From Vogesella indigofera (GTDB lineage: Bacteria; Pseudomonadota; Gammaproteobacteria; Burkholderiales; Chromobacteriaceae), in assembly GCF_003633895.1 (NCBI RefSeq), contig NZ_RBID01000020.1:62001-126000 (forward strand): DNA of 64,000 bases, written 5' to 3'. A model generated the notes under the pieces. The model saw only the letters and a program-made list of their open reading frames with translations. It made no database searches and had not been told where the DNA came from. How positions within the stretch are numbered: position 1 is the first letter of the stretch; the number at the start of each line of letters is the position of its first letter. A program made the position numbers and the translations under genes. Shown here in pieces: positions 10,635 to 37,972 of this stretch.

Positions 10635-11888
10635 TTATTGATCAAGCTGGCTGGCCAGCAGCGCGACGATGCGCGCGCTGGCGCCACGATGCTGCGCGGT
10701 AAACGCCAGGCCGGCGTCGCGCATCGCCGCGCGCTGCGGCGCGTCGGCCAGCAGTTGCAACACCAGCGCCACCAGGGCGCCGGCGTCAGCCACCTGCCGC
10801 GCGGCACCGGCAGCCAGCGCCAACTGGCTGGCCTCGGCAAAATTATAGGTCGACGGCCCCAATAACACCGGCACGCCGATGCTGGCCGGCTCGATCAGGT
10901 TCTGCGCGCCGAAATCCAGCAGCGAGCCGCCGACAAAGGCGACATCGGCGGCGGCGTAATAGCCGAACAGCTCGCCCATGCTGTCGCCGAGCCACACCTG
11001 CGTTTCACGTGAAACCGGCAACTGGTCGCTGCGCCGCTGCACGGCAAAGCCCTGCTCCGCCGCCAGCGCGGCAACCGTGCCGAAGCGCTCCGGATGGCGC
11101 GGCACCAGCAGCAACAGCGCGTCGCCAACGTTGGCCGCACGCCACGCCGTCAGGATCAGCGCTTCCTCGCCGTCGCGGGTGCTGGCGCACAGCCACACCG
11201 GCCGCTGGCCGATGCGTTCGCGAAACTGCGCCCCCAGCGCCAGCTGCGCCGATGGCGGCGTGAAGTCGTACTTGGTATTGCCGCACACGCGGATATTGCC
11301 CGCCCCCAGCGTCCCCAGCCGTGCGGCGTCGGCCTCGCTCTGCGCGGCGATGGCGCGCAACTGGCGCAACGCCGGGCGGATCAGCGCACCGATACGGCGG
11401 TAGCCGCGCAGCGATTTTTCCGACAGCCGGGCATTGACCAGAAAGGCCGGTACGCCGGCCTGTGCGCAAGCGTGCAGCAGATTGGGCCAGATCTCGGTTT
11501 CCATCAGGATCAGGCAGCGCGGCCGCAGCGCGGCGACGAAACGGCGCATCACCCGCGCGTTGTCGTACGGCAGGTAGCGCACCTCGGCGTCGGGGTACAG
11601 CTGCTCGGCGGTGGCGCGCCCGGTCGGCGTCATCTGGGTGATGACGAAACGCGCCTGCGGATACCGTTCCCGCAAACGGGCCACCAGCGGCTGTGCCGCG
11701 CGCGTCTCGCCCACCGACACCGCGTGCAGCCAGATCACCTCGCCACCGGCCTGCGGCAGCAGGTCGCCGAAGCGCTCGTCCCAGTGTTCGAGATAGGCCG
11801 GCGCCTGGCGCGCGCGTTTTCGCAGGTAGCGCCTGAGCAGCGGCGTCGCCAGCGGCCACAGCAGGCTGTACAGCGCGCGAGCGATCAT
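10635..11888 (-). CDS. waaA: 3-deoxy-D-manno-octulosonic acid (Kdo) transferase
   Basis: Transfers Kdo from CMP-Kdo to lipid IVA at the cytoplasmic face of the inner membrane, the first step of LPS core assembly. 417 residues. The N-terminus MIARALYSLLWPLATPLLRR is a membrane anchor. The Kdo-transferase domain shows IWLHAVSVGETRAAQPLV and the C-terminal GT-B half has GGSLLDFGAQNLIEPASIGV with PVLLGPSTYNF. The start codon overlaps the waaC stop in an ATGA, showing coupling to waaC. A longer upstream frame to 12200 is a shadow of waaC and is rejected. Confidence 0.97.
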   Translation of the reverse strand: MIARALYSLLWPLATPLLRRYLRKRARQAPAYLEHWDERFGDLLPQAGGEVIWLHAVSVGETRAAQPLVARLRERYPQARFVITQMTPTGRATAEQLYPDAEVRYLPYDNARVMRRFVAALRPRCLILMETEIWPNLLHACAQAGVPAFLVNARLSEKSLRGYRRIGALIRPALRQLRAIAAQSEADAARLGTLGAGNIRVCGNTKYDFTPPSAQLALGAQFRERIGQRPVWLCASTRDGEEALILTAWRAANVGDALLLLVPRHPERFGTVAALAAEQGFAVQRRSDQLPVSRETQVWLGDSMGELFGYYAAADVAFVGGSLLDFGAQNLIEPASIGVPVLLGPSTYNFAEASQLALAAGAARQVADAGALVALVLQLLADAPQRAAMRDAGLAFTAQHRGASARIVALLASQLDQ

Positions 11889-12841
11889 GCGCCGCGTACC
11901 CGCGCCAGCAGCGCCAGCACCGCGTCCACCGTCGGGATTTCTCCGGCACGGCCGATGTTGGCCGCACGCGCGGTTTCCACCACCCCGGTCAGCGCCGGGT
12001 CGGTATCGGTATAGATCGCCACCAGCGGCACATCCAGCGCGTTGGCGAGATGAGTCAGCCCGGTATCGACGCCGATCACCGCCGCGGCGTGGCCCAGCAG
12101 TGCCGCCGCCTCGCGCAGGTTCATCTTCGGCGCCAGCACGGCGCCAGGGATGGCCGCGGCCAACCTTTGCGCACGCTGCTGCTCCGCCGCACTGCCCCAC
12201 GGAATGACGATGGCCAGATCCTGATTCTGCAGCGCCTGTGCCAGCTCAATCCAGTGCGCCTCCGGCCACAGCTTGCTGTCGCGGCTGGTGGCGTGCAGCA
12301 GCACCGCGTAGTCGCCGGCCGGCAACCACGCCAGTCGTTCACCGCAGCGGATGCCGAACACCGGCGCGCCCTCGGGCCGGTAACCGAAGGCGGCGCCGAA
12401 CAGCTGGCGGTTGCGTTCGATCGCCGACAGCTGGCGGCTGACCGCGTAGCGGCGCTCGTAAAAGCGGCTGGCCAGCGGCTCGCGGATGCTGGCGCGGTCG
12501 TAGCCGGCCAGCGGGCCGTTGGCCCAGCGACCGGGAATGGCACTCTTCAACAGCCCCTGCGCGTCCAGCACCAGCTCCCAGCGCGTGGCGGCCAACGTAT
12601 GCCGCAGCGCCGCGATCTCGCGCCAGGTGGCGGCCTTGAACAAGGCCTTGCGCCAGCGTCGCCAGGCAATGGGAATGGTGCGGCTCACCAGCGGATGCAG
12701 GCCGGGAATGTCGGCAAAGCCTTCTTCCGCCAGCCAGCTGACGCTCAGCTCCGGACGGTGACGTGCCAGATCGGTCAGCGCCGGCCAGGTGTGGATAAGG
12801 TCGCCCATCGACGATGTGCGCAGCAACAGGACGTTTTTCAT
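11885..12841 (-). CDS. waaC: LPS heptosyltransferase I
   Basis: Adds the first L-glycero-D-manno-heptose to Kdo2-lipid A (glycosyltransferase family 9). 318 residues. It starts with VLLLRTSSMGDLIHTWPALT, the signature of this family, and has HATSRDSKLWPEAHWIELA near residue 190 and VIGVDTGLTHLANALDVPLV near 270, the ADP-heptose-binding loop. The start at 12841 gives MKNVLLLR; a frame extended to 12877 adds residues not seen in the family. A perfect DnaA box (12790-12798) lies inside the 5' part of the gene, continuing the array found upstream. First gene of the leftward waaC-waaA-(GNAT) unit. Confidence 0.96.
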   Translation of the reverse strand: MKNVLLLRTSSMGDLIHTWPALTDLARHRPELSVSWLAEEGFADIPGLHPLVSRTIPIAWRRWRKALFKAATWREIAALRHTLAATRWELVLDAQGLLKSAIPGRWANGPLAGYDRASIREPLASRFYERRYAVSRQLSAIERNRQLFGAAFGYRPEGAPVFGIRCGERLAWLPAGDYAVLLHATSRDSKLWPEAHWIELAQALQNQDLAIVIPWGSAAEQQRAQRLAAAIPGAVLAPKMNLREAAALLGHAAAVIGVDTGLTHLANALDVPLVAIYTDTDPALTGVVETARAANIGRAGEIPTVDAVLALLARVRGA

Positions 12842-13335
12842 GCGCCGGATTTTACGGGCAGCCCTGTGGTTAACCAAGTAAAATCAGGGCTACCGCTTTG
12901 TGGATAACTGGCAGTGGATAAATATCGCCAAAACTGTCCACAAGCTGTCCTGTTGCTGGCAGGCCCTTCAAAGACCCAGCCCCCAACAGGGCAAACTGTT
13001 GAAAACATTGGTCAATAGCGGGTTATCCACAGAAAAGTGTCCACTACATCAGTATCTTCATATTTAAAATAGGCAAACAATGAAAAGATGAGGTGCAGAC
13101 CCAAACGGCTGGAAACACTGTTTGCGTCATTGCTGGCAAGAGATTGTGGATAAGCGGGCAGCACGGCAAGATGGCAAAATTGTCCACAACTGATGCACGC
13201 CATTCCAGCTGCGGCAACGACAAGCTAGGCGACATCTCAAGTCATTGAAAAAAAACGTCTTTAGCGTGTTATCCACAGACCGGCACTGCCTTCTACTATC
13301 CTTATCCTTTATATAACTAGAAAGTACTAGAAAGA
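12842..13335. other. AT-rich intergenic region with regularly spaced DnaA boxes
   Basis: A 494-bp region between divergent waaC and the family-2 glycosyltransferase. It holds four perfect 9-mers TTATCCACA (either strand) at 12899-12907(-), 13023-13031(+), 13145-13153(-) and 13269-13277(+), spaced 124, 122 and 124 bp. One- or two-mismatch sites lie at 12913-12921, 12934-12942 and 13180-13188. AT-rich blocks occur near 13065-13100, 13240-13262 and 13300-13330. DnaA binding is expected from the known consensus. Whether this is an origin, a DnaA-titration or reactivation site, or a DnaA-regulated promoter cannot be told from sequence. Confidence 0.75.
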
Positions 13336-14097
13336 ATGTCGCGCCAACTTAGCGTGGTTCTGATCACCAAAAATGCCGAAGCGTTGCTGGAAAAATGTCT
13401 GCAAAGCTGTGCCTTTGCCGACGAGATCGTGGTGGTGGATTCGGGTAGCACCGACAGGACATTGGCAATAGCCTCTGCCTATAAGGCAAAAGTTATCCAC
13501 CAAACGTGGTTGGGATTCGGTCCGCAGAAGCAATTCGCGGTACAGCAGGCCAGCCACGACTGGGTGCTGTGTCTGGATGCCGACGAGTGGTTGTCTGAAA
13601 AATTGCGCCATGAAATCAGTAACTTGCTGCACAATCCGGCGCTTGGCGCCTACCGTTTTGCACGCAGCAACAAGTTCATGGGCCGCTTCCTGAAGTTTGG
13701 CGAAGGCTATCCCGATTACAGCTTGCGGCTGTTCGATCGCCGCCAGGCACGCTGGTCCGACGACGTGGTGCACGAGTACGTGATCGCCGACGGTGACGTC
13801 GGCACCCTGCCCGGCGACCTGATGCACGAATCCGGCGAAGACATCGCGCTGTACCTCGGCAAACAGAACCGCTACACCAGCCTGCAGGCAGAAACGCTGT
13901 ATCAGCGCGGGAAAAAGGCGGGGATTGCCAAGCTGCTGCTCAGCCCGCTGCTGCGCTTCGTGAAGTTTTACCTGCTGCGGCAGGGTTTTCGCGACGGCCT
14001 GCCCGGACTTGTCCACATCAGCATTGGCTGCTTCAACAGTTATCTCAAATACGCGAAGCTGATCGAACTGCACCGGCTTCGCCCACAGGAAAAATGA
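13336..14097 (+). CDS. Glycosyltransferase family 2 (WaaE/LgtF-like, LPS core)
   Basis: Cytoplasmic GT-A fold transferase of 253 residues, like the beta-1,4-glucosyltransferases WaaE/LgtF that extend heptose I of the LPS core. Residues 4-100 carry LSVVLITKNAEALLEKCLQS, FADEIVVVDSGSTDRTLAIA and DWVLCLDADEWLSEKL, which includes the D-x-D metal motif. HEYVIADG and the basic C-terminal helices are also typical. ATG 13336 lies at the end of the DnaA-box region. The last 4 bp overlap the following epimerase (ATGA), so the two are coupled. The exact sugar and linkage are inferred. Confidence 0.85.
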   Translation: MSRQLSVVLITKNAEALLEKCLQSCAFADEIVVVDSGSTDRTLAIASAYKAKVIHQTWLGFGPQKQFAVQQASHDWVLCLDADEWLSEKLRHEISNLLHNPALGAYRFARSNKFMGRFLKFGEGYPDYSLRLFDRRQARWSDDVVHEYVIADGDVGTLPGDLMHESGEDIALYLGKQNRYTSLQAETLYQRGKKAGIAKLLLSPLLRFVKFYLLRQGFRDGLPGLVHISIGCFNSYLKYAKLIELHRLRPQEK

Positions 14098-15068
14098 CGA
14101 TGAAAGTACTGGTCACCGGCGCCGCCGGTTTCATTGGCCGCGCGGTATGTGAAAAACTGCTGGATCGCGGCGATGTGCAAGTGATTGCTGTGGATAACCT
14201 CAACGACTACTACGCGGTGGCGCTGAAACACGCGCGCCTGGCCACGCTGCAGGGCCGTGCCGGTTTTGTTTTCCACAAGCTGGACATCGCCGACTGGGCC
14301 GCCATCGACGCGCTGTTTGCCGCCGAGCGCCCGGACTACGTGATCCACCTCGCCGCCCAGGCCGGCGTGCGCTACAGCATCGACAACCCGCACGTGTACG
14401 CGCAGAGCAATCTGGTTGGCCACACCAATATGCTGGAAGCCTGCCGCCGCTACCCGGTGCAGCACCTGGTGTTCGCCAGCTCTTCCAGCGTCTACGGCAA
14501 GAACGCCAAGGTGCCGTTCAGCGAAGACGACCGCGTCGACGAGCCGGTCAGCTTCTACGCTGCCACCAAGAAGGCCAACGAGGTGATGGCGCACAGCTAC
14601 GCCCACCTGTACCAGCTGCCGATCACCGGCCTGCGCTTCTTCACCGTCTACGGCCCGTGGGGCCGCCCGGACATGGCGCCGTGGCTGTTTACCGAGGCCA
14701 TCCTCAACGGCGACCCGATCAAGGTGTTCAACCACGGCCAGATGCAGCGCGATTTCACCTACATCGACGACATCGTCGAGGGCGTGCTGCGGGTGATGGC
14801 GCATCCGGCCAGCGGCGACGTGCCGTTCGCGGTGTTCAACATCGGCAACCACAACCCGGTGCCACTGATGGACTTCATCCAGGCCACCGAAGCCGCCTGC
14901 GGCCGCGAGGCGGTCAAGCAGTACCTGCCGATGCAGGACGGCGACGTGCCGGTCACCTACGCCGACACCGCGCGGCTGCGCGCCGCGGTCGGTTTCTCGC
15001 CGGACACGCCGCTGCGCGACGGCATGCAGGCCTTTGTCGACTGGTATCGCGACTACCACCAGCGTTGA
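14094..15068 (+). CDS. NAD-dependent sugar epimerase (UDP-glucuronate 4-epimerase-like)
   Basis: Short-chain dehydrogenase/reductase of the extended type, 324 residues. The NAD-binding motif is VLVTGAAGFIGRAVCEKLLD (residues 4-24). The catalytic serine is in VFASSSSVYG near residue 124 and the Y-x-x-x-K is in SFYAATKKANE near 153. It also has RFFTVYGPWGRPDMA and FTYIDDIVEGVL. This set is closest to CapI/WbpP-like UDP-glucuronate 4-epimerases, which supply UDP-galacturonate for capsule or LPS. Starts are ATG 14094 or 14100; the first overlaps the upstream stop. A perfect DnaA box lies inside at 14189-14197. Confidence 0.9.
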   Translation: MTMKVLVTGAAGFIGRAVCEKLLDRGDVQVIAVDNLNDYYAVALKHARLATLQGRAGFVFHKLDIADWAAIDALFAAERPDYVIHLAAQAGVRYSIDNPHVYAQSNLVGHTNMLEACRRYPVQHLVFASSSSVYGKNAKVPFSEDDRVDEPVSFYAATKKANEVMAHSYAHLYQLPITGLRFFTVYGPWGRPDMAPWLFTEAILNGDPIKVFNHGQMQRDFTYIDDIVEGVLRVMAHPASGDVPFAVFNIGNHNPVPLMDFIQATEAACGREAVKQYLPMQDGDVPVTYADTARLRAAVGFSPDTPLRDGMQAFVDWYRDYHQR

Positions 15069-15411
15069 GTCTTATCCAGTCCAGTGTGGCGGCAACGGCG
15101 GCCTTGCGCCCCGTTGCTGGCCGGCGGCCGCGGCTTCACACACGTACCATCGTGGCTGCCGGGCCGTAAACCGGCCGCCAGCGCCCGCTGTCGTTGCCAA
15201 CACCTCGTGCTGACGGAAGCGCACGCCAGGCGCGTGGCGGGCCGCTGTGGCGCCGCGATACCGCCTTGCCGCGCCATCCTGCCGCCGCTGCCGGCGTGGC
15301 GGCCAACTTTATCCACAGTTGGCCGCGCCGTTTCCGCCGCCGTGATGCGGCAATTTTTCCGCCACGGTCTAAGCTGAACTGATGAATTTTCCAGCGCGGG
15401 AGGCGGCAATC
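15069..15411. other. Intergenic region with motif hairpin enclosing a DnaA box
   Basis: 343 bp, GC-rich. The only structure seen is the inverted GCGGCCAA pair at 15299-15325 with TTATCCACA in its loop. No open frame here has a ribosome site and a family match. Confidence 0.6.
15299..15325. repeat. Inverted GCGGCCAA pair with DnaA box in loop
   Basis: GCGGCCAACT and AGTTGGCCGC type arms flank a loop that is itself a perfect DnaA box (15309-15317). It is the only hairpin of this family in the window with that arrangement. Confidence 0.7.
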
Positions 15412-16276: not shown

Positions 16277-18265
16277 ATGAGTCTGTTGCCGCACCAGGTT
16301 GAGCTGTTGTCCCCCGCCAAGAACATCGACATCGGCCGCGAGGCGATTTTGCACGGTGCGGATGCGGTCTATATCGGCGGGCCGAGCTTTGGCGCGCGGC
16401 ACAACGCCTGTAACAGCGTGGCCGAGATCGCCGAGCTGGTGCAGTTTGCCCACCGCTACCACGCGCGCATCTTCACCACGCTCAATACCATCCTGCACGA
16501 CGCCGAGCTGGACGCCGCGCGCACGCTGATCTGGCAACTGTACGACGCGGGTGTCGACGCGCTGATCGTGCAGGATATGGGCATCCTGCAGCTGGACCTG
16601 CCGCCGATCCAGCTGCACGCCTCCACCCAGTGCGAAATCCGCGATGCGGCCAAGGCGCGTTTCCTGTCCGATGCCGGCTTCTCGCAGGTGGTGCTGGCGC
16701 GCGAGCTGACCATCCCGCAGATCGCCAAGATCTCGCAGACCGTGGCTGAGGGGCATGACCCGGCCGCCATCGAATACTTCATCCACGGTGCGCTGTGCGT
16801 CGCCTTCTCCGGCCAGTGCTACATCAGCCACGCCGACAACGGCCGCAGCGCCAACCGTGGCGACTGCTCGCAAGCCTGTCGCCTGCCGTACACCCTCACC
16901 GACGAAAAAGGCGGTGTGGTCGCCTTCGACAAGCACCTGCTGTCGATGAAGGACAACAACCAGAGCCGCAACCTCGAGGCGCTGCTCGACGCCGGCGTGC
17001 GTTCGCTCAAGATCGAAGGCCGCTACAAGGACGTCAGCTACGTCAAGAACATCACCGCCCACTACCGCCTGCTGCTCGACGAAATCATCGAGCGCCGGCC
17101 GGAACTGGCGCCCGCCTCCAGCGGCAGCAGCGAAATCTACTTCGCGCCCGATCCGGACAAGACCTTCCACCGCGGGGCAACGGATTATTTCGCCACCGGC
17201 CGCAAGATCGACATCGGCGCCTTCGATTCGCCGAAATTCGTCGGCGTCGAGCTGGGCAGCGTGCACCAGGTCGGCGATAACTGGCTGGAGATCGCCACCG
17301 CTGACAGCATGGCCAACGGCGATGGCATCAACTACATGAAGAAGCGCGACGTTGTCGGCATGCAGCTCAACACCGTGAAGCAGATCGGCCACGTGCCGGG
17401 CGGCGAGCTGCTGTGGCGCTGCGTGCCCAACGACCCGGCGGTGCTGGCCGGCCTCAAGCCCGGCACCCGCATCAGCCGCAACCGCGACCACGCGTGGGAG
17501 CTGTCGCTGCTGAAAAAATCGGCAGAACGCCGCATCGGCGTGTGGCTGAACCTGGACCAGACCGCCGACGGCCTGGCACTGACCATCACCGACGAAGACG
17601 GCTGCAGCGCCACCGCCCACGCGACACTGGCGCTGGAACCGGCCAAGGACGCCGCCCGCGCCGAAGCCGGCCTGCGCGACGCCGTCGCCAAGCTCGGCAA
17701 CACGATGTTCGTGGCCAACGACGTGGCGCTGAACCTGGCGCAGCCGTGGTTCGTGCCGTCATCGGTGATCAACGCGCTGCGCCGCGACGCGGTGGAAAAA
17801 CTGGAAGCCGCCAGGTTGGCCGCCTGGCCACGCCAGCCGCGCAAGGCGCCGGTACAGCCGCCGGTACCGTATCCGGAAAAAAACCTCAGCTACCTCGCCA
17901 ACGTCTACAACGCCAAGGCCTGGGATTTCTACAAGAAACACGGCGTGGAAGTGATCGAGCCGGCCTACGAGGCGCACCAGGAAGAAGGCGAAGTCAGTCT
18001 GATGATCACCAAGCACTGCCTGCGCTTCTCCTACAACCTGTGTCCGAAGCAGGCCAAGGGTGTCAAGGGCGTGATGGGCCAGGTGCGCGCCGACCCGATG
18101 GTGCTGAAATCCGGCGACGAGACCTACACGCTGAAATTCGAATGCCGCCCGTGCGAGATGCACGTGATGGGCAAGATGAAGAAGCACATCCTGAAATCGC
18201 CGCCACCGAGCGAGATTCCGGCGACGGCACCGATCACCTTCTTCAAGCAGCGACCTGCGTCGTGA
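16277..18265 (+). CDS. rlhA: U32-family 23S rRNA C2501 hydroxylase RlhA (YdcP-like)
   Basis: Peptidase-U32-family protein; in E. coli RlhA makes 5-hydroxycytidine at C2501 of 23S rRNA using prephenate-derived chemistry. 662 residues against ~650 for E. coli YdcP, longer than TrhP (YegQ). It has LLSPAKNIDIGREAILHGAD, IGGPSFGARHNA and the U32 signature EYFIHGALCVAFSGQCYISH with following cysteines (GDCSQACRLPY) near residues 175-205. SLKIEGRYKDVSYVKN follows, and the C-terminal region has KHCLRFSYNLCPKQ and FECRPCEMHVMG, cysteines likely to bind a cluster. The ATG has AGGAAG upstream. A terminator follows. Confidence 0.9.
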   Translation: MSLLPHQVELLSPAKNIDIGREAILHGADAVYIGGPSFGARHNACNSVAEIAELVQFAHRYHARIFTTLNTILHDAELDAARTLIWQLYDAGVDALIVQDMGILQLDLPPIQLHASTQCEIRDAAKARFLSDAGFSQVVLARELTIPQIAKISQTVAEGHDPAAIEYFIHGALCVAFSGQCYISHADNGRSANRGDCSQACRLPYTLTDEKGGVVAFDKHLLSMKDNNQSRNLEALLDAGVRSLKIEGRYKDVSYVKNITAHYRLLLDEIIERRPELAPASSGSSEIYFAPDPDKTFHRGATDYFATGRKIDIGAFDSPKFVGVELGSVHQVGDNWLEIATADSMANGDGINYMKKRDVVGMQLNTVKQIGHVPGGELLWRCVPNDPAVLAGLKPGTRISRNRDHAWELSLLKKSAERRIGVWLNLDQTADGLALTITDEDGCSATAHATLALEPAKDAARAEAGLRDAVAKLGNTMFVANDVALNLAQPWFVPSSVINALRRDAVEKLEAARLAAWPRQPRKAPVQPPVPYPEKNLSYLANVYNAKAWDFYKKHGVEVIEPAYEAHQEEGEVSLMITKHCLRFSYNLCPKQAKGVKGVMGQVRADPMVLKSGDETYTLKFECRPCEMHVMGKMKKHILKSPPPSEIPATAPITFFKQRPAS

Positions 18266-18278
18266 GCTAGTGGGGGAT

Positions 18279-18296
18279 GCGGCCAAGGTTGGCCGC
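18279..18296. repeat. Palindromic GCGGCCAA pair after rlhA
   Basis: GCGGCCAAGGTTGGCCGC, an 18-bp near-perfect palindrome, 14 bp after the rlhA stop and upstream of the true terminator. Confidence 0.8.
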
Positions 18297-18316
18297 AGGT
18301 TTGGATGACATAGAGC

Positions 18317-18344
18317 AAGGGCAAGCCGGATGGCTTGCCCTTTT
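18317..18344 (+). terminator. Terminator of rlhA
   Basis: AAGGGCAAGCC / GGCTTGCCCTT, loop GGAT, with TTTT at the 3' end. Confidence 0.85.
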
Positions 18345-18480
18345 GTCATTGTCTTGCCGTATGATGATCGGGTTTGTAGGTTGGCGCAGCACATAGCCAA
18401 GATCAACACTTGATGAGCATGGCGCGGTAAACATTGAGTTTCGCAGGCTCAGTCCAGTCTACCCTGCTTATGGAGAAGTA

Positions 18481-19041
18481 ATGAGAGCAATTAATAAGAT
18501 ATTATTTTTGATAATTACTTTTTCAATTATGGCATGTAGTAAAAACCATGTTGAACCAGTTGTTCTTAAGCTGAATGGTGACTCCTCTTTATTTATTGAA
18601 GTGAAAAATTGTAATTTCCCTTTTCAAGGGGAGTCAATGATATCTTTTTATGCCGAGCTTGATCGATCTACCCGTAATTTTGTGTGTGGTGATGGCAGCA
18701 ATAAGGATGATGTTTTTAGAATACAAATTGGAAATTTTAGATTTGAATATAGTCTTGGCTATTACATGAAGATTGAAGAAACAGAATATTATTCTTTGTA
18801 CAAAGAACGAAATAATGAAACATCTATTGGATGGGCTATTTTTTCGAAAAAACATGGTTTTCTGGTGAGAAAATCAAATATTAAGAATAAAATTGTTGAA
18901 GTAACTTCAGATATGGGTGGCCGGTTTTACATGGAGGCACTGATTGATGTGAATTCATTTGAACCAGATAACGTTATATATCAGGCTAATCGAGTAGTTG
19001 AGCTTCTAAATGCTAACGTAAGAAACGGTAAGCCGGACTGA
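18481..19041 (+). CDS. AT-rich putative lipoprotein, unknown function (186 aa)
   Basis: No family recognised. Residues 1-19 are a lipoprotein signal (hydrophobic ILFLIITFSIMAC, cysteine at 19). The mature part has many charged and aromatic residues, with two to three cysteines (KNCNFPFQGE, FVCGDG). Base composition is far more AT-rich than the rest of the window and codon choice (AAT, ATT, AAA, TTT) is unlike the neighbours, a strong sign of transfer. A good ribosome site GGAGAAG lies just before the ATG. It is followed directly by an inverted GCGGCCAA terminator and repeat C copy 1, the same arrangement as the gene at 19573. A C-x-F-x(1-2)-G-x-x-x-I-x-F pattern is loosely shared with that gene. 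Confidence 0.75.
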   Translation: MRAINKILFLIITFSIMACSKNHVEPVVLKLNGDSSLFIEVKNCNFPFQGESMISFYAELDRSTRNFVCGDGSNKDDVFRIQIGNFRFEYSLGYYMKIEETEYYSLYKERNNETSIGWAIFSKKHGFLVRKSNIKNKIVEVTSDMGGRFYMEALIDVNSFEPDNVIYQANRVVELLNANVRNGKPD

Positions 19042-19077
19042 GCTTGTGAAGCCCAATTTTTTATCGCAATGAATTGG

Positions 19078-19123
19078 AAAGGTTGGCCGCAAGCCGTCAT
19101 GGGCTTTGCGGCCAACCTTTTTT
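19078..19123 (+). terminator. Inverted GCGGCCAA pair acting as terminator
   Basis: AAAGGTTGGCCGCAAGCC pairs with GGCTTTGCGGCCAACCTTT (one bulged T) and runs into six Ts, 37 bp after the 186-aa lipoprotein gene. Confidence 0.85.
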
Positions 19124-19385
19124 GAAATATGGCATCCGCTGCGCGGATATTTTTTTATCTGCCGCTTTCCGCACGGCGGCGGGATACTTTCTTTTGCTTC
19201 GCCAAAAGAAAGTATCCAAAGAAAAGGCGACCCGAAGGCGCAAGCATTCCCGTGAAAACCGCCGCCATCCCGGCGCCGCCCATCCGCTGCGCTCAAAAGA
19301 GGGCGGCTTGTTTCCGGGCTGGCGGCCGTTTCCACGGCTTGCGCCAACGGTGATGGGAGCGTCGGTTCGGTTTTGGCTGGTGATA
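19124..19385 (+). repeat. Dispersed repeat family C, copy 1
   Basis: About 260 bp nearly identical (mid-90s % by eye) to 20120-20385. A central hairpin at 19182-19217 has 15-bp perfect arms (GGATACTTTCTTTTG / CAAAAGAAAGTATCC, loop CTTCGC). Together with the preceding motif hairpin the repeated unit is ~305 bp. It is GC-rich, unlike the gene it follows. Confidence 0.85.
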
Positions 19386-19572
19386 TTGGAGTGAGAACCG
19401 TAGGGTGCAACACCCCGGCTTTATCGAGGCGTTGCACCGTTTTTCGGGCGGGTGAAACGTGTAGCCAGAATAAGCTGCAGGCGCATCCGGGTAGGTGCGG
19501 GGTAAATCTCAAGGCGGGTTACTAGCGATTGGTTGGTCACTCCCACGGTAATAATATATTTTTGAGGTTGGA

Positions 19573-20022
19573 ATGAGAAATTATTTTGATGTGGTGGTTA
19601 TTTGGATGGTAATGATTTTGGTGTTTGCTTTTTTTTGTACAGCATGCGCCTCTGATTATGAAACAATAAAGATACCTAAAAATAAATATGGTGTTTTTTA
19701 TATTAATCATTGCCCTACAAGATTTTTTTCAGGCGCACCACTAATCGAGTTTAAATTTTATTCATCGGCAGGTGATCTTGAGAAAATTATGAATGAATTA
19801 GGCAGAGACTCTGCAAAAGGAAGAGTGGTTTTTGAAAGTTTTGAAACTAATCAACGTCAAGTATATGGCAAGAGCTCTATGTATGGTGGGTATGTCGCTA
19901 AGGATAGTGTACGTGTTAGTATGGACTTCATAAAATCAGCTAGTTGTCAAAAATATAAAGTGATAGTTGAAGAGGCATTTAATGAAGATGTGGATATATA
20001 TGTTGGTAATCGCTATCTTTAG
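19573..20022 (+). CDS. AT-rich putative lipoprotein, unknown function (149 aa)
   Basis: No family recognised. Signal segment VVVIWMVMILVFAFFCTAC suggests a lipoprotein with the lipidated cysteine near residue 25; a plain N-terminal membrane anchor is the alternative. The mature part is mixed alpha/beta with a C-x(3)-FFSGAPLIEFKF stretch loosely like the 186-aa neighbour. Strongly AT-rich with foreign codon use. GAGG precedes the ATG. It is followed, as its neighbour is, by an inverted GCGGCCAA terminator and a repeat C copy, so the two look like two units of one cassette type. An immunity or surface role is possible but nothing in the sequence proves it. Confidence 0.72.
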   Translation: MRNYFDVVVIWMVMILVFAFFCTACASDYETIKIPKNKYGVFYINHCPTRFFSGAPLIEFKFYSSAGDLEKIMNELGRDSAKGRVVFESFETNQRQVYGKSSMYGGYVAKDSVRVSMDFIKSASCQKYKVIVEEAFNEDVDIYVGNRYL

Positions 20023-20385: not shown

Positions 20386-20455
20386 AGTTATCCACAGGTG
20401 GTATCGCGGTCGCTTGCACTGACCCTGCGAAGCCCATCTCTACCGCGATCAAATC

Positions 20456-22179: not shown

Positions 22180-22319
22180 CGGCCGGCGCGGCGTTTCACG
22201 TGGAACGGCCCGGCCGCCGCCGACAAACAGCACAATGGCAACAGCGGATTGCGTTACAATCCGCTGTTTTTCATTGCGGCGGCAGAAATGCTGCCGAATC
22301 AGGGTTTTAAGGAATCAGT

Positions 22320-24711: not shown

Positions 24712-24745
24712 AAACGGCCACCCGCGTTGCCGGTGGCCGTTGTTG
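24712..24745 (-). terminator. Terminator of HD-GYP gene
   Basis: AACGGCCACC / GGTGGCCGTT with a short loop; on the minus strand it is followed by TTTTGT, right after the HD-GYP stop. Confidence 0.75.
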
Positions 24746-24747
24746 TT

Positions 24748-25962
24748 TCACATGAAACGCAAGGGGTTGATGCCCCACTTTTCCGGCGCCTCGTGGCGCA
24801 CGATCTTGTCGCCGCCGCCAAAGCCGAGCGGTCGCGACAGGTCGATGATTTCCGGCTGCAGGTAGGTATTGCTCTTGCTGCTGAACATCACCTTGATCTT
24901 CGGCGTCAGCAGGTTGCTGTCGTGCTGCTCGATCACCACCCCCAGCTTGCCGGATTCCAGCAACACCAGCGTGCCGACCGGGTAGATGCCGACACAGCGC
25001 ATGAAGGCCTGCACCAGCTTGGGGTCGAAGTGGTATTTCGACCATTCGAAGATCTTGCGCAGCGCATCGGTCGGTGCCATGCCCTTGTGATAGCAGCGAT
25101 CGGCGGTGATGGCGTCGTAGACGTCGACGATGGCCGCCATCTTGGCCAGTGTGCTGATGGTGTCACCCTTGAGATTGTGCGGGTAGCCGCTGCCGTCGAC
25201 GCGTTCGTGGTGATGCAGGGTGATGTCGAGCGGGATCTCGCTGATGCCCTCGGTGCGGCTGAGGATGTCGAAGCCGTCGCGCGGGTGGCGCTTGATGATG
25301 TCGAACTCCTCCTCGGTCAGGCGCCCCGGCTTGTTGAGGATCTCGTCCGGCACCAGCGCCTTGCCGGTGTCGTGCAGGATGCCGCCCAGCCCGGCAAGGT
25401 GGATAGTTTCCATGTCCATGCCCACCGAGCGGCAGAACGCGATCATCAGCGTGCCGACGCTGACCGAATGCAGGAAGGTGTAGTCGTCCTTGTTCTTGAT
25501 GCGCAGCAGCGTCAGCAGCGCGCCGCTGTTGCTGAGCACCGATTCGGTGATCGATTCGATCATCGGCTCGACCTGCTCCAGCTCCACCGCCCGCCCCAGG
25601 CGCACATCCTGCATCACGGTCTTGACCAGCGCGTGCGCCTGGCTCTTGATGCGGTTGGCGCGGCCCAGCTCCTCGGCAAACGACAGCGCGATGATCGGCG
25701 CCGGCTTGCTGGTGACCGCCTCGATCATCTGCTGCTGCAAGCTGGCGTTGACCTCGTCCACGCTGCGCGCATGGCTGACATCCAGCCCCTTTTCGGTATC
25801 GATATAGAGTTCGTGAATACCGGCTTCGACGATCTTGGCGATTTCGGCATCGTTCTTGATCAGGAAGCGCTTGCGGAAAAACGGATGAGAGGTCCAGTCG
25901 CAGTTCAGGTCATGCACATACATGCCGATCTTGATGTCGGCAATATCGATATTTTTGATCAT
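24748..25962 (-). CDS. HD-GYP cyclic di-GMP phosphodiesterase with DUF3391
   Basis: 404 residues. The N-terminal DUF3391 (about 5-125, ADIKIGMYVHDLNCDWTSHP) is followed by an HD-GYP domain (about 150-330). Catalytic motifs are intact: the HD pair in AGLGGILHDTGKALVP near residue 196, HHERVDGSGYP near 249, and D in MAAIVDVYDAITADR. It should hydrolyse c-di-GMP to pGpG/GMP. Soluble, with no receiver domain. Convergent with the diguanylate cyclase. The second HD-GYP-type protein in the window (62686) lacks these residues. Confidence 0.94.
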   Translation of the reverse strand: MIKNIDIADIKIGMYVHDLNCDWTSHPFFRKRFLIKNDAEIAKIVEAGIHELYIDTEKGLDVSHARSVDEVNASLQQQMIEAVTSKPAPIIALSFAEELGRANRIKSQAHALVKTVMQDVRLGRAVELEQVEPMIESITESVLSNSGALLTLLRIKNKDDYTFLHSVSVGTLMIAFCRSVGMDMETIHLAGLGGILHDTGKALVPDEILNKPGRLTEEEFDIIKRHPRDGFDILSRTEGISEIPLDITLHHHERVDGSGYPHNLKGDTISTLAKMAAIVDVYDAITADRCYHKGMAPTDALRKIFEWSKYHFDPKLVQAFMRCVGIYPVGTLVLLESGKLGVVIEQHDSNLLTPKIKVMFSSKSNTYLQPEIIDLSRPLGFGGGDKIVRHEAPEKWGINPLRFM

Positions 25963-37312: not shown

Positions 37313-37972
37313 ATGAATTTCGAACAAGCCCGCTTCAATATGGTTGAGCAACAGATCCGTCCGTGGGACGTGCTCGACACCTCCATTCTCGATCTGCTGT
37401 TCCACGTGAAACGCGAAGATTTTGTCGGTACCGACAAGCGCGCGCTGGCCTTTGTCGACACCCAGCTGCCGCTGGACAACGGCTGCACCATGCTGGAGCC
37501 GAAGGTCGAAGCCCGTCTGGTGCAGGACCTGCAGGTGAAAGCCAGCGACAAGGTACTGGAAATCGGCACCGGCAGCGGCTACCTGACCGCGCTGTTGGCC
37601 GCCGTCGGCCAGCACGTGTACAGCGTCGACATCGACGCGCAGCAGCTGCAGCACGCTGCGGCCAACCTCAAGACCGCCGGCATCAAGAACGTGACGCTGA
37701 GCCAGGGCAACGGCATTGACGGTCTGGCGGCGCAGGCGCCGTTCGACGTGATCTGCGTCGGCGGTTCGGTACCGGTGGTGCCGGAAGCGCTGAAGGCGCA
37801 GCTGGCCGTCGGCGGCCGCATGGCGGTAATCGTCGGCGACGCGCCGGTAATGATCGCCAAGATCATCACCCGCGTGTCCGAAACCGCGTATCAGGAAAGC
37901 GTCAGCTTCGATACCAACATCGCGCGCCTGCAGCAGCTGGACGCGATCGAACCGTCGCGCTTCAGCTTCTGA
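37313..37972 (+). CDS. pcm: Protein-L-isoaspartate O-methyltransferase
   Basis: Methylates isoaspartyl residues of damaged proteins with SAM so that they revert to aspartate. 219 residues. It has FEQARFNMVEQQIRPWDVLD at the N-terminus, the substrate-loop region MLEPKVEARLVQDLQ, and SAM motif I VLEIGTGSGYLTALLAAVGQ near residue 82, followed by VYSVDIDAQQL and PFDVICVGGSVP. The member lacks the classic family opening and is closer to the betaproteobacterial Pcm-like group, so substrate preference is inferred. The stop overlaps the start of the rhodanese by one base (TGATG): translational coupling. Confidence 0.9.
   Translation: MNFEQARFNMVEQQIRPWDVLDTSILDLLFHVKREDFVGTDKRALAFVDTQLPLDNGCTMLEPKVEARLVQDLQVKASDKVLEIGTGSGYLTALLAAVGQHVYSVDIDAQQLQHAAANLKTAGIKNVTLSQGNGIDGLAAQAPFDVICVGGSVPVVPEALKAQLAVGGRMAVIVGDAPVMIAKIITRVSETAYQESVSFDTNIARLQQLDAIEPSRFSF

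Follow-up and report, generated by a model that had tools for sequence, protein, structure and literature searches.

Two tandem DnaA-box modules between waaC and a glycosyltransferase gene as the very probable chromosomal origin of Vogesella

The window analysed here is a 64-kb stretch of Vogesella DNA (G000:C9:62001-126000) from a genome of 3.62 Mb in 20 contigs. It contains a 494-bp intergenic region between waaC and a glycosyltransferase gene, which are divergently transcribed, and this region is crowded with DnaA boxes. We argue that it is very probably the chromosomal origin of replication, oriC, of Vogesella species, separate from dnaA and made of two modules in the same orientation, some 246 bp from one another. 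Perfect TTATCCACA boxes occur in the window at 12790, 12899, 13023, 13145, 13269, 14189 and 15309, exactly where a first-pass annotation of this DNA had placed seven of them, and an eighth lies at 20388. Dinucleotide-shuffled versions of the window gave a mean of 0.13 perfect boxes and a maximum of 2, confirming that their number exceeds chance, as is expected of a bacterial oriC. The whole genome has 24, of which 8 are in the window.

The seven boxes are not all of one kind. The core consists of 12899 (-), 13023 (+), 13145 (-) and 13269 (+), all intergenic, and the alternating orientation and spacing of 124, 122 and 124 bp described for them were verified. This spacing reads as a tandem repeat of one putative origin module, with the copies 246 bp apart and in the same orientation. 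Each module has a minus-strand box at 0, plus-strand boxes at +35 and +124, a spacer of 12-13 bp and an AT-rich unwinding-type element. Because the +35 boxes of the window are degenerate (two mismatches and one), the earlier reader saw just the -, +, -, + series. Match scores below refer to R1, a sequence-only model built from 60 modules of 30 loci of the family (Chromobacteriaceae); matches in those modules are by construction. The genes and module features are as follows.

11885-12841, minus strand: waaC, lipopolysaccharide heptosyltransferase I (TIGR02193, 395.6 bits; a longer frame runs to 12877), the left neighbour in the relatives checked
12899-13076, plus strand: distal (waaC-side) module (R1 match 12898-13076, 98.5 bits; this copy is itself in the model)
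12899-12907, minus strand: distal box 1, perfect
12913-12921, minus strand: accessory DnaA box with one mismatch here and none in several relatives
12934-12942, plus strand: distal box 2 at +35, with two mismatches here and none in most of the relatives listed
12992-13001, plus strand: distal CAAN4TTG motif, tentative IHF-like core
13023-13031, plus strand: distal box 3 at +124, perfect
13044-13076, plus strand: distal AT-rich unwinding-type element (AT 0.76; family mean 0.73), which holds conserved stretches
13145-13322, plus strand: proximal (glycosyltransferase-side) module, shifted by 246 bp (R1 match 13144-13322, 80.6 bits, by construction)
13145-13153, minus strand: proximal box 1, perfect
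13180-13188, plus strand: proximal box 2 at +35, one mismatch
13238-13247, plus strand: proximal CAAN4TTG motif, tentative IHF-like core
13269-13277, plus strand: proximal box 3 at +124, perfect
13290-13322, plus strand: proximal AT-rich unwinding-type element (AT 0.70; family mean 0.68), which begins 12 bp past box 3
13336-14094, plus strand: glycosyltransferase gene, the right neighbour, whose orthologue is lacking in 11 family genomes

By composition, each module thus carries an AT-rich unwinding-type element beside a box, as bacterial origins do: family mean AT rises from 0.51 and 0.56 in the interval from box 1 to box 3 to 0.73 and 0.68 in the elements. The TTC that opens the proximal element is invariant in 47 aligned sequences. 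The CAAN4TTG motif lies 21 bp ahead of box 3, its AA and TG columns are invariant in all 60 aligned modules, and it could be an IHF core.

To follow the modules through the family, 69 loci were scanned and 47 distinct ones kept, after removal of duplicates and of loci with a match starting elsewhere than at a start codon (L017, L021, L028, L091); L028 has a box spacing that is related yet different. Two module copies are found in all 47, with box 3 at +123 to +125 and no more than two mismatches per box. The +35 offset served to locate modules in the 47-locus alignment. Counts of perfect-box pairs were made without it, and the commonest distances were 35 bp (-/+, 44 pairs), 89 bp (+/+, 35) and 124 bp (-/+, 27). 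The shift from copy to copy is 245-259 bp in 40 loci, 337-340 bp in 6 and 311 bp in 1. Measured from the glycosyltransferase start, boxes lie at about -190, -155 and -66, and in many relatives also at about -437, -402 and -312. A bacterial oriC should occur once per chromosome and be conserved vertically; consistent with this, R1 matched twice in tandem in all but one of the 61 family genomes (60 of 61); the exception, G047, is 84% complete and in 360 contigs.

With the boxes masked, identity is 0.52 between distal copies, 0.49 between proximal copies and 0.40 between the distal and proximal copies of the same genome. In a tree, the 47 distal and 47 proximal copies form wholly separate clades (support 0.92), and we therefore regard the two copies as old, having diverged as two lineages. 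That they stayed distinct suggests that each has its own job. The tree also held seven modules from a second family (f51), two of them on the distal side and the rest without a resolved placement. Downstream of box 3, the two copies of one genome are 0.54 identical, compared with 0.27 for shuffled sequence.

The module is not confined to this family. In an order-wide sample screened with stricter filters, at least 256 of 399 genomes have an R1 match at E 0.01 or better; matches in other families are weaker, and many perhaps reflect any cluster of DnaA boxes. In each of the six sampled f51 genomes, R1 matches two or more times in one orientation, at intervals of 217-275 bp (one second copy is partial), and waaC lies beside the modules. 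In two f8 genomes among the matches listed, a pair of matches in one orientation is separated by 391 and 424 bp, respectively, and therefore the tandem arrangement may extend beyond two families. At four of seven other-family loci, the match is flanked by dnaA- and dnaN-like genes, which were identified by eye from open reading frame (ORF) starts, and at three (f5, f8) it is elsewhere. The Vogesella locus shares the R1 match with these dnaA-dnaN origins of the same GTDB order but differs from them in that its modules adjoin waaC, away from dnaA, and stand two in tandem.

GC skew in relatives, taken in contiguous 20-kb blocks, turns from negative to positive at the modules and not at dnaA in G059 (within about 20 kb), G039 (about 5 kb) and G029 (about 5 kb). 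In these genomes dnaA lies 75, 146 and 236 kb from the modules, respectively, in the mainly negative arm. The f51 genome G260 also switches at the modules, with dnaA about 408 kb off on the circle, so the sign change expected at an oriC is seen in three relatives and one second-family genome. The first-pass annotation had taken the nearby yidC-mnmE as a clue to the origin, which turns out to be a coincidence of lineage. In 22 relatives, dnaA is 34-296 kb from the modules (75-296 kb in 14 one- or two-contig genomes, 34-236 kb in 8 drafts); these are the genomes among the 61 that have dnaA and modules on one contig, minus our own genome and three members of its close clade. Within that clade (G000, G049, G052, G053) the distance is 14-15 kb, and the closeness of dnaA here (15 kb) is lineage-specific.

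parS-like sites, defined by a 14-base core with at most one mismatch, number six in the genome. All are on this 168-kb contig and four are within 25 kb of the modules, the nearest at 1.9 kb; a reversed-pattern control gave none. Those in the window are listed here.

11001-11016: parS-like site, perfect 14-base core
22193-22206: parS-like site, one mismatch in the 14-base core (contig position 84193)
24744-24759: parS-like site
37398-37413: parS-like site

Among the 61 family genomes, 16 have an exact 16-base parS, and in 11 of these 16 one lies 4-16 kb from the modules. Proximity to parS, another property of bacterial origins, is therefore seen in our own genome and is mixed among relatives.

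Several observations weigh against placing oriC here. On its own contig, cumulative skew is irregular: it reaches its minimum at window position 17914, which is 4.6 kb to the right of the modules, dips a second time near contig position 24 kb and climbs from 28 to 60 kb. Between the modules and dnaA, G059, G039 and G029 have individual blocks with a skew close to zero or weakly positive, and the global profile of G260 is noisy. The exact 16-base parS was not found in 45 of the 61 family genomes, our own included; the nearest one is more than 100 kb from the modules in G001 and G025, and it is on another contig in G009, G014 and G043. The full IHF consensus, which we take to be WATCARNNNNTTR, has two to three mismatches in 87 of 94 family modules and none or one in 7 proximal ones, although a control segment fits somewhat worse than the modules do. 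DnaA-trios by the published rule (at least three trios no more than 16 bp from the box) occur in 13 distal and 18 proximal modules out of 47 each, compared with 39% and 34% of shuffled tails, which is no enrichment.

The irregular skew of the own contig may reflect a lineage-specific rearrangement that also carried dnaA near. The local minimum at 17914 is partly due to a stretch of low GC (0.44-0.45) and positive skew (0.155 and 0.182) at 18001-20000. This stretch has two small lipoprotein-like ORFs, judged by eye, lies near repeat hairpins and is perhaps acquired.

The identification of the region as oriC rests on how the sequence is built and conserved, on the skew switch seen in relatives and on the parS-like sites close by. 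Of the options raised in the first-pass annotation, that of oriC itself has gained strong support. The annotation also offered a datA- or DARS-like site, at which DnaA is titrated or reactivated while oriC lies elsewhere, for example at dnaA. Such a site would fit the density of boxes away from dnaA and the conservation of the 12790 box within coding sequence. However, the skew of relatives switches at the modules rather than at dnaA, the dnaA side of our own genome has one perfect box and zero R1 module matches, and parS-like sites cluster around the modules. This evidence is indirect, but the skew and the parS-like sites put the origin here, and we regard a non-origin box locus as extremely unlikely. 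DnaA regulation of waaC and the glycosyltransferase as the purpose of the boxes is also very unlikely. The genes are divergent, waaC adjoins in the loci checked, and a one-mismatch box sits in a conserved stretch by the waaC start, all of which agree with regulation. Yet the modules persist, with waaC adjoining in 11 of 11, in 11 genomes outside R1 that have no glycosyltransferase orthologue (G012, G017, G025-G027, G030-G033, G036, G037; best matches 36-43% identical). In 9 of the 11 there is no such glycosyltransferase gene in the 5-kb stretch around the modules, and G036 and G037 have a 37-38% paralogue about 1.5 kb off. Moreover, repression would presumably not need the rigid 35/124 spacing or the AT-rich elements, and no sigma-70 consensus promoters or terminators were found at 12750-13400. 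Control of the glycosyltransferase is therefore disfavoured as the reason for the boxes, and an added DnaA effect on waaC is possible.

If the region is oriC, there is about an even chance that one module is the unwinding site and the other a DnaA-loading or spacing array, a view that overlaps with our own. In favour of this view, the proximal module keeps an almost constant distance from the gene start (box 1 at -187 to -193), and that of the distal one varies (shift 245-340 bp). Known bipartite origins also speak for it. In those of Bacillus subtilis and Helicobacter pylori, as described in the available part of PMC4285127, the clusters are split by a gene and only one part carries the DNA unwinding element (DUE); the other origins described there are continuous. 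The Vogesella region shares with bipartite origins its two DnaA-box clusters, but both modules are in one 494-bp intergenic region with no gene between them, and each has an AT-rich element. Against a division into one unwinding and one loading module speak the retention of box 3, spacer and AT-rich element by both copies in all 47 loci, and their similarity after box 3 (54% identity in one genome, 27% for shuffled sequence). It is possible, although somewhat doubtful, that this is a twin origin, with two complete, anciently duplicated, co-oriented modules about 250 bp apart that both bind DnaA and open DNA, in at least two families. If so, two opened sites would replace the single unwinding site of the textbook, perhaps one for each helicase, or a main site and a backup.

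By analogy with other origins, DnaA would fill the boxes of a module, a bend near CAAN4TTG would fold box 3 back toward boxes 1 and 2, and a DnaA oligomer growing from box 3 would open the adjoining AT-rich element for helicase loading. The one-mismatch boxes and the 12790 box in waaC may help to load or time DnaA. From the same analogy we infer DnaA binding, unwinding, helicase loading and the firing of one or both modules. An oriC at waaC throughout the family would be missed by a search near dnaA, and a natural tandem origin would allow direct tests of the role of a second unwinding element, of the spacing of modules and of the loading of helicase.

The layout resembles the DUE-proximal half of E. 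coli oriC, which holds that origin's box R1, in having a TTATCCACA box, a short GC-rich spacer and an AT-rich region in the same polarity. E. coli oriC has one such box-spacer-AT unit; unlike it, the Vogesella region has two in tandem and is depleted in GATC. A weak match of our module model to E. coli oriC (12.5 bits, E 0.01), at L199:289-372, covers that box plus its flank and falls short of proof of homology. GATC averages 0.43 in the 47 loci against 1.67 expected and is absent from our own 460 bp. An origin sequestered by SeqA and Dam should show an excess, and such sequestration is therefore unlikely here. Compared with the basal unwinding system, a DnaA box followed by DnaA-trios, the length of the spacer agrees: box-to-trio spacers peak at 10-13 bp in the available part of PMC8287927, and the 12-13 bp between box 3 and the element falls inside this peak. 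By the rule given above, our proximal module has 3 trios and the distal one 1. Since trios are no commoner than in shuffled tails, we do not claim them for the modules.

A literature search, with DoriC and subscription papers outside its scope, returned no account of a continuous origin built from two full modules in tandem, no paper on this origin in Vogesella or Chromobacteriaceae, and no hit for oriC with wording like 'two DUEs'. Laribacter is among the fairly near relatives. In Laribacter hongkongensis, Ori-Finder predicts an oriC that has eight DnaA boxes, according to the available part of PMC3135505.

Among named relatives, the glycosyltransferase of the window is closest to those of Vogesella margarita, V. 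fluminis and V. alkaliphila (94-95% identity), which we take to be members of the family Chromobacteriaceae. Two further boxes lie on the waaC side.

12790-12798, minus strand: upstream DnaA box inside waaC codons, overlapping the conserved WaaC motif GDLIHT
12865-12873, minus strand: DnaA box TTAACCACA with one mismatch, lying beside the waaC start in a stretch of strong conservation

In 35 of 47 relatives the 12790 box is preserved, the Leu codon there being the box-making CTT. Elsewhere in waaC fragments CTT is rare (31 of 850 Leu codons), although these counts come from related sequences and do not convert to a probability. This codon use points to selection for the 12790 box. The conserved stretch that holds the 12865 box is possibly the waaC promoter.

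The remaining perfect boxes of the first-pass series have a different character. The 14189 box was rejected as a selected site; it lies inside epimerase codons, the codons are ordinary and only 8 of 19 loci could be parsed. The box at 15309-15317 sits between inverted arms, GCGGCCAACT and AGTTGGCCGC, similar to the core of a dispersed repeat particular to the genus, and for this reason it is probably outside oriC. Elsewhere in G000, perfect boxes pair in the same orientation 29-30 bp apart at C2:244724/244753, C8:10565/10594 and C13:46104/46134, and in opposed orientation 27 bp apart at C5:103226/103253. These four pairs are possible DnaA-regulated or titration sites.

The dispersed repeat, GGTTGGCCGCA, has 34 copies in the window against 0.10 in shuffles (for example at 19081/19107, 20461/20486, 34967/34982 and 58619/58638). 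Its longer form, AAGGTTGGCCGCA, has 960 copies in the genome, 489 on one strand and 471 on the other, and the reversed control has 0. An apparent strand bias of AAGGTTGGCCGCA was dismissed as an artefact, given these totals and seven 20-kb stretches that carry the strands about equally. Some copies form terminator-like inverted pairs. Density is 7-12 copies per 20-kb locus in nine Vogesella or Vogesella-like loci; ten other family loci have one copy combined, and 400 kb from each of two other family genomes had none. The repeat resembles elements of the DNA-uptake-sequence type and may be one of them.

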